Assembly: GCA_009768925.2 (NCBI GenBank)
Contig: VHIT02000018.1
Location: forward strand, 310,001-374,000
DNA length: 64,000 nucleotides
Source: Cryptosporidium bovis
Taxonomy: Eukaryota; Apicomplexa; Conoidasida; Eucoccidiorida; Cryptosporidiidae
Direction: 5' to 3'
This document shows, piece by piece, positions 1 through 23,205 of the stretch (its first letter is position 1; every line of letters begins with the position of its first letter). A program made the position numbers and the translations under genes. The notes beneath the pieces were generated by a model, which saw only the letters and a list, made by a program, of their open reading frames with translations, searched no databases and was not told the origin of the DNA.

Positions 1-374
1 CTATTGCGAACCTTGCTTTGAACTCTAAATAATTATAAATTATTAAACGTGGCGCCAAATCCAGAGACGCCTAGTTTGATTACTGAATTGTGGTAAAATG
101 TGATTAACCGCCTAGTCGTTGAGTTATAGAAAACAAAAACTATAAATATATTTTCATACTTTAAATAATAAATTATCAAAAGAAAAATAAGATTGTATCA
201 GGTATTTGCAATTGTTTCTGATTTTTTTGGAGCTATTTTTTATTTCAATAAGAATAATAAATAAATATTTCACTTATTTATTTCTATTCATTTGAATAAC
301 ATAGTATCGTTTCAACTTTATTTGTTCTTTTTAGATAGAAGAATTCGCACTTGTTACTATAACAATATACGAAA
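1..374. other. Upstream region of RPL4
   Basis: AT-rich, with no convincing ORF. It carries one GGCGCCAAA E2F-like site at 51-59, about 320 bases before the RPL4 ATG, and T-rich tracts nearer the start codon. Confidence 0.6.
51..59 (+). promoter_or_regulatory. E2F-like motif upstream of RPL4
   Basis: GGCGCCAAA stands out in AT-rich surroundings and matches the E2F/DP-like motif class reported upstream of Cryptosporidium genes. Function is inferred from motif and position only. Confidence 0.45.
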
Positions 375-2844
375 ATGACATTTGCAAGACCAATTGTTAG
401 CGTATTTCCAATAAATGACTCAACGAAGGCAGTTTCAACGATTCCATTACCAACTGTCTTTGTTTCTCCATTAAGACATGATCTCGTTCGCTACGTATTT
501 ACAAACATGTCAAAGAATAAAAGACAAGCTTATGGTGTTTCTACGAAAGCAGGTATGTTTTGGATTCCATAAAAGGTAATATTACTGCTTATGCCTCAAT
601 GGTATCATGATCTTGGAGAATTGGTGTTTGCGTTTGAATGTGGGAAAATATCTGATTTGTGATGAAAGCTATTTTGATAGGGACATCTGATTTTAACATT
701 AAAATATGATGTCTGAAATTAAGATTTCACAAGATAGTAGATTCTGATGTTATTTTCCCAATATTCTGTATATCTACATACGTATACATTTAAATGCATA
801 AAAGTCACCTTGAATATACTTAATACTGTTTTAATGTTAATTTTATACCATTGAATTGCACTATTACCTTTTTATATATTGATAAAATGATTTAATTTTA
901 ATTTGCTATTTCCAGGCCATCAACACTCCGCTGAATCATGGGGTACTGGTAGAGCTGTTGCTCGTATTCCACGTGTTTCTGCATCCGGTACCAGTAGATC
1001 AGGTATGTTTTACACCCAAATTACAGATATTTATGGAGTGGCGTATATGTAATAATCAGAATTGGTTCTATTATTGAAATGATGTGATCTGTACCGTCAT
1101 TATATTAAGATAATGTTATGTTTTGAAACGCAAACAATTAATGATGTATAATAAGTCGTGCACCACACTGAATTTGAAATTAATGTTAATTTCTTTATGT
1201 GGATAAACCGATTATTTGCTATTCAATAACGATTTTGTTCTTGGATAGTCTGAAGTGTTTTATTGTTTCTAAATATTGACATTATTTTCTTTATAACATC
1301 AATATATTTTGTTAAATAAAATGCAAACACTGGCATTTTATTTAAGTATGTTCGGTGTTATGGAGATTATATTATCAATGTATAATGAGGTTCGGTTATG
1401 CCATAACAACGGATCTATGCATGCGAAGTTGTGACTCAGAATATTGTTTTAATAATACGGGCTAATTAAACACCAAGATTTCATTCTCCATAAATTATCT
1501 TCCTTTCACATTCTTTGGTCAAATTACTAACTTTGAAATTATCGATTGTTTCGACTTACAGGCCAGGGTGCTTTTGGTAACATGTGTCGTGGTGGTCATA
1601 TGTTCAGTCCAAACAAGACTTACAGAAGATTTCACAGGAAGATTAATACAACTGAGAAGCGTCATGCTGTTGCTTCTGCCATTGCAGCAACAGGATGCCC
1701 GGCTTTGGTTATGGCACGTGGTCATCGCATTGATAATATACCTGAATTACCATTGGTTGTTTCCAGTGATATTCAAAATATTAAGAAGACCAGTGCAGCA
1801 ATCGAATTCTTCAAAAGTTTCGGTAAGTTTTGTTTGTGGAAGGAGATGATTTTATTCGGTTTTGAGTTGTATTTGCAATTTTACGTAGTAACAAGAAATG
1901 GATATTACAATGTAATACTATAATGTATGCATTATGTATTCAATGTATTTGGGATGATTCTGGAAGTTACCCAGCTCATACTGAATTCAGTAATATGTTG
2001 AGCATGCTTCCTTTTTGATTATATCTGAGATACATTAAAAACAATTTATTGTGATATCTGTGACTCTTTCTTACTACGCCACCAAGTTGCCAATATGTAT
2101 AACCCAAACAATCTCGATATCATTACTTTCCATCAATATATAAATTATAAACAATGTCTAACTAATAATCAACTTACTTCGATAATATTAGGCCTCGAAG
2201 ATGAAATGAAGCGTATTGAATCTTCTGTTGCAATTAGATGTGGTAAGGGTAAAATGAGAAACAGAAGAAGAGTATGTGCAGTTGGTCCACTAATTGTATA
2301 TGCTGAGGATAACGGGATTGTAAAGGCTATGAGAAACATTAAGGGCGTCTCTACATGTTCAGTTGAACGTTTGAATTTACTTAGACTCGCTCCTGGTGGT
2401 ACCTTTGGTAGATTAACAATCTACACAAAAGATGCAATTAAAAGACTCCAGGAAATTTATGGTAGTTATACCAATGGTTCTTCATCTAAAGTTGGATATA
2501 CTTTACCACGTGCAGCAATGACAAATGCCGATATTGGTCGCATTATTAACTCAACTGAAGTTCAATCTGTATTAAGACCATTACGTGGTTTCAGGTGCAT
2601 GATGTCAATGAATAGGTCAAAGACTAAGAAAAACAATTTAACCAACTTATCAATTAGAGCTCGTCTGAACCCAGCTTACACAAGGCTTAGAAGAAATGCA
2701 AGACTAGAACAGATCCCAGGTACAAGAGCTCATGGAACCAAGAAACTCCAAAAGGCAGCAAATCGTGCATTGAAGAAATCAATCAAACAAAAATCCGACA
2801 TTGCAATTGCAGCAAGGGCTCTTTCTGGTCACAACCAAAACTGA
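375..2844 (+). CDS. RPL4: 60S ribosomal protein L4 (uL4), four exons
   Basis: Large-subunit ribosomal protein uL4, which lines the peptide exit tunnel. Exons are 375-552, 916-1002, 1562-1822 and 2192-2844, which join to a 392-residue protein, normal for the family. All three introns interrupt a glycine codon in phase 1 (G|GC), start GTATG or GTAAG and end AG. The spliced protein contains recognisable uL4 stretches such as the glycine-rich loop [12 protein letters not shown] and APGGTFGRL. The introns are 363, 559 and 369 bases, far longer than the 50-90 base introns elsewhere in this window, and each holds a box C/D snoRNA candidate. Reading frame is kept across every junction, so the model is secure. 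Confidence 0.95.
641..760 (+). ncRNA. Box C/D snoRNA candidate in RPL4 intron 1
   Basis: A perfect 10-bp terminal stem (641-650 with 751-760) encloses box C GTGATGA (659-665), D' CTGA (687-690), C' ATGATGT (706-712) and D CTGA (744-747). The D' antisense element (676-685) is complementary to UGUCCCUAUC. The D antisense element (732-742) is complementary to AUCUACUAUCU. These two targets overlap by three bases and together read UGUCCCUAUCUACUAUCU, a highly conserved LSU rRNA segment as I recall the yeast sequence. By the D+5 rule the predicted sites are the first C of CCC (D') and the U of AUCU (D). The stem-to-C spacing (8 bases) is somewhat long. No homology search was possible. Confidence 0.85.
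1132..1268 (+). ncRNA. Box C/D snoRNA candidate in RPL4 intron 2
   Basis: A 7-bp terminal stem (AAACAAT 1132-1138 with ATTGTTT 1262-1268) encloses box C ATGATGT (1141-1147), D' CTGA (1168-1171), a weak C' ATGTGGA (1197-1203) and D CTGA (1250-1253). The D' antisense element (1157-1166) can pair with the SSU rRNA segment GUGGUGCAUG, with one G-U pair. The fifth base upstream of D' faces the G that precedes UGCAUGG. From memory this is the site methylated in yeast (Gm1271, snR40) and human (Gm1328, U32). The D-side guide has no target I recognise. The C box deviates at one base and the molecule is long, so confidence is moderate. Confidence 0.6.
1312..1345 (+). repeat. Perfect 13-bp hairpin in RPL4 intron 2
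   Basis: Positions 1312-1324 are the exact reverse complement of 1333-1345, with an 8-base loop. The stem has no internal loop, so it does not look like an H/ACA guide hairpin. Function unknown. Confidence 0.6.
1942..2036 (+). ncRNA. Box C/D snoRNA candidate in RPL4 intron 3
   Basis: A perfect 7-bp terminal stem (AATGTAT 1942-1948 with ATACATT 2030-2036) encloses a degenerate C box ATGATTC (1954-1960), D' CTGA (1981-1984), C' ATGTTGA (1995-2001) and D CTGA (2025-2028). The D' antisense element (1969-1978) is a perfect 10-base complement of UGAGCUGGGU, a conserved LSU rRNA segment. The fifth base upstream of D' faces the A of UGAGC, which from memory corresponds to yeast 25S Am2946 (snR71). 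The D side shows no recognised target. The weak C box is the main reservation. Confidence 0.7.
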
Positions 2845-3125
2845 ACTAAATGAATGACAACTTGAGTGAATTGCCAAGTTTTTACTTTTAATATTAGTGT
2901 TGATACACGACAATGTCAATTTTCTTCTTAGTTTTATCCCCTCGTACATAAACTTTAATAATTTGGATAGGTTTTTATGTGAAGTTGACTTTTTTTTAAT
3001 TGTCACGAAGAGGTGATGAAATACAAACATGTACTGATTCTAAAAGTAATTAATTTATTTCCTTGGTTGGTCCTAGTAAAAAGTAAATTTAAATTGTATT
3101 TCTTGTTACTTTGATCTATTTCTCA

Positions 3126-21863: not shown

Positions 21864-23205
21864 AGCAAAGAGTACCATAGCCTTATAAATGAACTTCTAC
21901 AAAGTAAATATTTTTAGTTACTGTGATTTTTCCTTTCGAAACACACTACTATCGCAAAAAATATTATACTCCCCTTAATAATTATAATCAATAATATCAT
22001 ATGTATAGTATAGATAATTAATGTATTTTATCTGTATTACACTGACTTGTTTCTCATAATAATGCTTTATTATAATTGTTTTTGATTGTTATATTAAGAT
22101 GTGCACATGACTTTTGCTAGAGAAAGATGCCGATAAAGTTACAGGGTGTTGTAGATTAGTTTTTGTTGAACCGTGCATTCACACTATGTAATTTTAGTAC
22201 TAAACAGTGTATTTGGTGTCATATGAATGCTATATTATAATAGCCAAATTAGGATTCGAGTGATAATGTTCATTTTGCCTTCAAATTGTTGGAAATTAAC
22301 AGGTTAGAGGAAAATTAAACTAAAAATGAAGGAATTTATTTATTAACACGATAAATATTCTGATAGAAGTAGGTAATTTCGTAAACTTATATATAATAAG
22401 TATATTAATTTATTTGAATTTTATCTTTAATATTCAATAATGCTCGTAAAAATGTATAAGCCTTTTTTTACGATATATTACCCCTCACAAAAAAATAGGG
22501 CAGGATAGATAAAACTAATATTAGAGGTTGTGTTGGTAATATATAGATGCAAACATACATATAGTACATATATATATATATATATATATGTACATATATA
22601 CATATATATACATGTATACACATATATTTTCTTATTTTCACATATATTATGAAATTATTGCATGTTAAAAGTAGAAATAAACCAAAGCAGTTTGTGATTG
22701 TTGCCTATTTTACAATTCTGCAATAGAAACAGTTGTAAATTCAATATTTAAATTTAACTTACCTGTAAGTCTGGGAGAAGCGCAGTACAATACACTAAAA
22801 AAGGTTTAAAGGTGAGGAAGGATAGGCATTTAATAGTGTTCAGAATTCGGGGTTTTAAACATTCTTTTCTATTATTGTGAATAAGCAATTAATTTAAGAA
22901 TTTGTACATGATAAATCACTATATTAACAGAAGTTGAGAATACTTTGAAAGAATTGATATTAATAAAGTAAAATAAAGTTCATAAAAGGCGAGTTTACTG
23001 AGCAGAATAGAAGTGTGAAATAATTTTACTTTTTTAGTAATTGGAATCAAAGAGTTGCATTTAAAAAATAATATTTTAGCATACAGAAGGCTTCATATTT
23101 ATTTATTTTTGTAGAAAATAAATTTTAGGAAGAGTGAAAATACTGCTACTTAAGAGTTAAAATTGAGATTATAAAACAGATATTATATTTATTAATGAAA
23201 TTGAA
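21864..23205. other. 1.3 kb spacer between RPN11 and branching enzyme
   Basis: Very AT-rich, with a TA microsatellite at 22566-22627 and no supported ORF. CT|GTAAGTC at about 22763 looks like a splice donor and could mark a 5' UTR intron of the branching-enzyme gene, ending near a TTTGTAG at 23115. This is not demonstrable from sequence alone. Confidence 0.5.
22566..22627. repeat. TA / TACATA microsatellite
   Basis: About 60 bases of TA repeats mixed with TACATA and CATG units. Confidence 0.85.

Follow-up and report, generated by a model that had tools for sequence, protein, structure and literature searches.

A predicted double-guide box C/D snoRNA in RPL4 intron 1 of Cryptosporidium bovis, directed at one conserved segment of LSU rRNA

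The 64-kb stretch of Cryptosporidium bovis DNA analysed here (the window) belongs to an assembly of 9.06 Mb in 43 contigs and carries the RPL4 gene on its forward strand (375–2844). The coding sequence is divided into four exons (375–552, 916–1002, 1562–1822 and 2192–2844) with a product of 392 amino acids, and the three introns lie at 553–915, 1003–1561 and 1823–2191. Intron 1 has the form GTATGT...CAG, its splice sites being inferred from the open protein. A Pfam search found both Ribosomal_L4 and Ribos_L4_asso_C in the product. In an alignment to the C. bovis protein P0001, 392 of the 395 aligned positions were identical, i.e., all 392 residues encoded here; the remaining three are extra residues in P0001 at its annotated intron-3 donor. 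Translation, Pfam domains and the P0001 match bear out the sequence-only reading, which had placed a snoRNA in the first intron of RPL4.

The element in this intron is a predicted C/D snoRNA precursor unit with an outer stem (641–760, forward strand), recognised from its boxes, its guides, a scan for the full arrangement and its fold. The 5′ arm of the stem, TGGGAAAATA (641–650), is the exact reverse complement of the 3′ arm, TATTTTCCCA (751–760), giving a perfect stem of 10 bp. Between the arms lie, in order, box C (GTGATGA, 659–665), an exact match to RUGAUGA; the D′ guide GATAGGGACA (676–685); box D′ (CTGA, 687–690); the C′/D′ loop TTTTAACATTAAAAT (691–705), in which sequence and predicted fold allow a short AT stem; box C′ (ATGATGT, 706–712), with one mismatch to RUGAUGA; the D guide AGATAGTAGAT (732–742); and box D (CTGA, 744–747). 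The four boxes inside a perfect stem had been described beforehand, and their letters and coordinates were confirmed. Because the stem stands 8 nt from the boxes on the 5′ side and 3 nt on the 3′ side, it is regarded as an outer flanking stem that would pair the two termini of the precursor. When the 25-nt flanks were shuffled base by base, only one of 5000 shuffles yielded a 10-bp stem. The mature RNA probably spans about 655–751. Among the features of a box C/D snoRNA, terminal C and D boxes, internal C′ and D′ boxes, a flanking stem, and guides at D′ and D to the LSU rRNA of another eukaryote were found, and the element is very probably a genuine box C/D guide RNA.

The targets of both guides lie in one conserved segment of LSU rRNA. 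The LSU reference was L002, a contig of another eukaryote rather than of C. bovis, which was the one match among GTDB genomes to a 22-mer of the target segment; the same 22-mer was without a match in IMG/VR. L002 scored as eukaryotic LSU rRNA (Rfam RF02543, 1778.7 bits). Reference pieces for the SSU and the 3′ part of the LSU were IMG/VR contigs (L003–L005), likewise from other eukaryotes. The D′ guide forms 10 Watson-Crick pairs to L002 2703–2712 and the D guide 11 to L002 2710–2720, in both cases with no mismatch or G-U pair and with pairing that begins at −2 from the box. The five-nucleotide rule puts the predicted sites at L002 C2706 and U2713. The earlier proposal of 10- and 11-base guides to overlapping parts of a single segment, with a C and a U seven bases apart as the predicted sites, is upheld on this reference. 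The rDNA of C. bovis went undetected in the 9.06-Mb assembly with an exact 18-mer, a 112-nt LSU query, an 802-nt LSU query and an SSU query, searches whose one positive control was that the window found itself in the assembly. A search for the 5.8S family, in which 39 of 244 candidates were scored and which had the same single control, gave no match in the assembly. The rDNA is undetected here, which does not mean that the match to the guides is missing.

To name the sites, L002 was mapped to yeast with an offset of 369. With this offset, the base was correct for all 11 of the yeast positions taken from PMC5199042, one of which (Gm2395) is marked absent in that source, as against 6 of 11 for the next best offset. 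The yeast equivalents are C2337 for the D′ guide and U2344 for the D guide. Cm2337 is listed as the site of yeast snR64 (PMC5199042), and the listing in PMC11542601 has the equivalent nucleotide methylated in yeast, human, Arabidopsis, tomato, tobacco, an alga and P. abyssi. The human counterpart is given as Cm3820, or as Cm3841 in another numbering. Yeast Cm2197 and human Cm3680, which had been placed in or beside the segment, were replaced by C2337 and Cm3820 and dropped as targets, since offset mapping places Cm2197 140 nt upstream of C2337. From the pairing, it is predicted with high confidence that the D′ guide directs methylation of the C2337 equivalent.

Comparison with known families points to the same site. 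Over the whole window, no Rfam family matched at its gathering score. The best match at the element was SNORD74 (RF00284), with 34.9 bits against a gathering score of 41 and an E-value of 2e-6 for a stretch of 401 bases or 3.3e-4 for 64 kb. The match spans 648–712 only, which leaves the D guide outside, and the SNORD74 consensus shares UAGGGACAUCUGA with the D′ guide and box of intron 1. The members snR64, U74 (SNORD74) and snoR44 of Rfam clan CL00069 have Cm2337 as their methylation site, which is the predicted site of the D′ guide. The element would work like these members but is not filed among them, as the RF00284 gathering score was not reached. For Plasmodium, the listing assigns the Cm2337 equivalent to PFS15 and PFS16, both in an intron of the gene for ribosomal protein S27a (RPS27a) (PMC2656528). 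They resemble the C. bovis element in being apicomplexan guides within a ribosomal-protein intron with the same site as its D′ guide. However, they occur as two copies in one intron with one listed site each, unlike the double guide described here, and TAGTAGAT was not found by eye in their printed sequences. Rfam matches to SCARNA7, sR2 and miRNA families were dropped as weak.

The closest likeness to both guides was found in TtnuCD23 of Tetrahymena (RF02299), although its score was low (24.2 bits against a gathering score of 70; E = 0.33 for 401 bases). In the alignment, read by eye, each of its guides is identical to that of the intron 1 element over 10 of 10 letters. Its layout is GAUAGGGACA-N-D′ and GAUAGUAGAU-N-D, with the same one-nucleotide spacing as in C. 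bovis; the box after its D′ guide is CAGA, unlike the CTGA found here. TtnuCD23 is not mentioned in the main text of the Tetrahymena paper PMC6315972. By sequence alone, descent cannot be told apart from convergence on a common target as the source of this likeness. The fungal family Afu_335 matched with 28.7 bits against a gathering score of 50 (E = 0.0044 for 401 bases and 0.7 for 64 kb). By our own reading, its consensus contains UAGUAGAU, whose complement is the LSU stretch that the D guide also addresses. Contact with this stretch is seen in a fungal, a ciliate and the C. bovis sequence, and guide spacing only in the latter two; by eye, PFS15 and PFS16 of Plasmodium lack such an element.

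Two nearby targets for one RNA had been called unusual, which proved overstated. Arabidopsis snoR44, with Am2316 and Cm2327 as its listed sites (PMC3511168), is like the C. bovis element a guide of the Cm2337 type that has a second site close by, although this second site, Am2316, lies upstream and is not U2344. In archaea, 262 of 489 sRNAs are predicted to be double guides (PMC4644070). With TtnuCD23, snoR44 and the archaeal sRNAs as precedents, the double aim is not new in kind, and because the C2337 site is also ancient, the surprise is modest. Yeast snR13, snR48, U18 and U24 address two nucleotides per target region in another way, via unusual C′/D′ motifs and not via two guides (PMC5389607). 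The target listed for a further yeast RNA, snR65, is Um/Psi-m2347 (PMC5199042), which falls within this LSU segment, 3 nt beyond U2344 in the 3′ direction. Um2347 was tried as the site of the D guide and dropped, the predicted site being 3 nt off.

For the D guide itself, the pairing and its position make methylation of the U2344 equivalent a reasonably likely prediction, held with less confidence than that for C2337. U2344 is absent from the methylation listings for yeast (PMC5199042), plants (PMC11542601) and Dictyostelium (PMC8817022); the human sites in PMC11542601 cover only those common to plants, and the absence there is not informative for human. In addition, the target stretches of the D′ and D guides overlap by three nucleotides (AUC), and as a consequence two full-length duplexes would be mutually exclusive on one rRNA. 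The missing listings and the overlap both favour an alternative with a single functional guide, in which D′ methylates C2337 and the D element serves to hold the snoRNA on the neighbouring rRNA or to aid folding, with no methylation of U2344. Extra base-pairing of this kind boosts methylation by yeast snR13, though it is without a role for U18 (PMC5389607). The Afu_335 motif UAGUAGAU also fits, as it contacts the same stretch at about 12 nt from box D, a non-guide spacing to which the five-nucleotide rule does not apply, unlike that of the D guide here. However, the D element lies exactly one nucleotide from box D both in C. bovis and in TtnuCD23, which is the spacing of a methylation guide, and the C′ and D′ boxes are well formed. 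The single-guide alternative is considered rather unlikely on this evidence, and two active guides are the preferred reading.

The argument that so many parts would not agree by chance stands for the full arrangement and fails for a single guide. The rRNA set for the chance tests comprised 4621 bases from several eukaryotes; it is incomplete and does not include that of C. bovis. A lone guide of at least 10 pairs beside CTGA is fairly common, occurring at 9 of 337 CTGA with the real rRNA, at 3 of 337 with the reversed rRNA and in 118 of 6740 tests with 20 shuffled rRNA sets. The full arrangement was defined as an exact box C with two CTGA boxes downstream of it, both of which carry guides of 10 or more pairs that lie no more than 20 nt apart in the rRNA. 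It occurred once in the window. It was absent from 1,888,822 bases of DNA from a viral collection, whose loci had been chosen for containing one of the two guides (322 C/D pairs, 28 of them with one guide), and from 3,839,999 shuffled bases (334 C/D pairs, seven with one guide). That the resemblance is accidental, or that the element serves the intron in some other way, for example by controlling RPL4 splicing through its strong stem, has some points in its favour. The region 636–765 folds better than most of its shuffles (z-score −3.04, with an equally good fold in 2 of 200), and intronic snoRNAs that act on the splicing of their host have been published (PMC10324135). In the predicted protein-free fold of this region, both guides are partly paired internally. 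The absence of any comparable arrangement from 5.7 Mb of controls and the SNORD74 match over the 401-base stretch speak against such an explanation, which is judged highly improbable.

It was also considered that a guide RNA may once have functioned here and that the element is now a decayed or unexpressed copy. That all Rfam gathering scores went unreached in the window would be in line with decay, whereas the four boxes (with the one mismatch in C′), both guides and the stem have all been retained. No other copy was found in the assembly by exact-pattern search: the pattern of D guide plus box D matches exactly at the intron 1 element and nowhere else in the genome, and the D′-guide pattern has one other match, TAGGGACANCTGA at C4, which is without a box C. 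With none found by these searches, no replacement copy is seen for a widely conserved site, and decay is very unlikely. The copy search extended to at least 205 IMG/VR loci (L010–L214) with one guide and a D box, 85 stretches coming from one search and at least 120 from another. No exact box C with two guides was present in L010–L214, and among 217 loci a D′ guide with an upstream box C or a downstream D guide occurred only in those of the window itself (L001, L216 and L217).

A functional snoRNA would be made and used as follows. The snoRNA would be released from the spliced RPL4 pre-mRNA by splicing and then debranching. The outer 10-bp stem would bring boxes C and D together, and the snoRNP proteins would assemble on the C/D and C′/D′ motifs. 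Exonucleases would trim the ends to about 655–751, as suggested by the maturation of intronic C/D snoRNAs. The D′ guide would then pair with UGUCCCUAUC of the LSU, leading to 2′-O-methylation at the equivalent of yeast C2337, and the D guide with the overlapping AUCUACUAUCU, leading to methylation at the equivalent of U2344. The overlapping sites might be served in turn, or one of the duplexes might be shortened. A genome search for core snoRNP genes found one fibrillarin and three Nop-domain matches above the cut-off, each of which may be Nop56, Nop58 or Prp31. The sequence and architecture of the element, its complementarity to conserved eukaryotic LSU rRNA and the fibrillarin and Nop-domain genes were directly observed, and from them we infer that the intron 1 snoRNA is expressed, assembled and active in methylation.

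The other two introns of RPL4 carry weaker C/D candidates, putatively for SSU Gm1271 and LSU Am2946. The candidate in intron 2 (1133–1253, forward strand) was recognised by Rfam and guide pairing. It has a box C-like ATGATGT (1141–1147), a guide (1155–1166) to the SSU at the equivalent of yeast G1271, a D′ box CTGA (1168–1171) and a tentative box D, CTGA (1250–1253). Its match to snoZ221/snoR21b reached 31.1 bits, below the gathering score of 44 (E = 1.1e-4 for the intron and 0.013 for the window). The guide forms 12 bp including two G-U pairs with the SSU, a score equalled by nine Watson-Crick pairs with LSU L002 2943–2951, and in the mapping to G1271, 3 of 3 bases agreed at a single offset that had been chosen. 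The candidate in intron 3 (1946–2033, forward strand), again from guide pairing and Rfam, is the weaker. It has a box C-like GGGATGA (1951–1957), a guide (1969–1979) to the LSU at the equivalent of yeast A2946, a D′ box CTGA (1981–1984) and a tentative box D, CTGA (2025–2028). Its SNORD29 match (16.3 bits, E = 1.5) is by itself not significant. The guide forms 10 Watson-Crick pairs and one G-U pair with L005, and the mapping to A2946, a listed site of U29 and snR71 (PMC8817022), agreed at 5 of 5 bases. In a relaxed scan of the window (box C with at most one mismatch, guide score of at least 9), nine places were found, four of them within the 1291 bases of the RPL4 introns; the other five, outside these introns, are taken as chance.

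For C. parvum, a 2025 review counts five identified C/D snoRNAs whose targets are without experimental confirmation (PMC12246861). Because as many as three candidates, each with a named target, come from a single gene, the guide set of Cryptosporidium is probably under-annotated, and methylation of the rRNA at the equivalents of C2337, U2344, G1271 and A2946 can now be tested directly. Overlapping guides within one RNA would show how a single snoRNP serves two mutually exclusive sites. A more speculative idea is that a coupled guide has been kept since the ancestor of ciliates and Apicomplexa. Its two guides would each read one half of an 18-nt LSU segment, the halves overlapping, and would have to act in turn, joining the ancient Cm2337 to an alveolate-specific Um2344, and this in a very compact genome and in an RPL4 gene whose introns would all carry guides for deeply conserved sites. 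This idea is offered tentatively, as one that may well not hold; the point most deserving of a test is Um2344.

The use of RPL4 as a host is shared with vertebrates, whose RPL4 gene likewise carries C/D snoRNAs (U16, U18) in its introns. The chicken gene is described as such a host in introns 1 and 3 and in introns 2, 5 and 6 (PMC2653536). The vertebrate snoRNAs U16 and U18 differ from those of C. bovis RPL4 in both identity and targets.

Two further introns of RPL4 also carry C/D snoRNA candidates. The second candidate in the gene, which is snoR21b-like, lies in intron 2 (window 1133-1253), and its guide is predicted to target the position in SSU rRNA that corresponds to Gm1271 of yeast. The third, in intron 3 (window 1946-2033), is a weaker candidate with a SNORD29-type guide, which may be directed to the counterpart of yeast Am2946 in LSU rRNA.

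In the public database entry for RPL4 of C. bovis, three additional residues (KFC) are present at the donor of intron 3 (window 1823-1831). These residues were absent from all five of the other RPL4 proteins compared, four of which are named as Cryptosporidium, and the GTAAGT donor used here is therefore favoured over the version in the public entry on the basis of this protein comparison.

Matches to microRNA families in Rfam were seen at a repeat-like, AT-rich stretch (window 22540-22626). All of them fell below the cut-off, and they are probably spurious.

No LSU, 5.8S or SSU rRNA was detected in a search of the C. bovis assembly that contains the window. The reference contig used for guide pairing, L002, is a eukaryotic LSU rRNA over positions 1-3101. 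It belongs to a GTDB Gammaproteobacteria MAG, where it is presumably a contaminant. Eukaryotic rRNA was also found within three IMG/VR 'viral' contigs (L003, 3632-4543; L004, 4059-4305; L005, 1-361).
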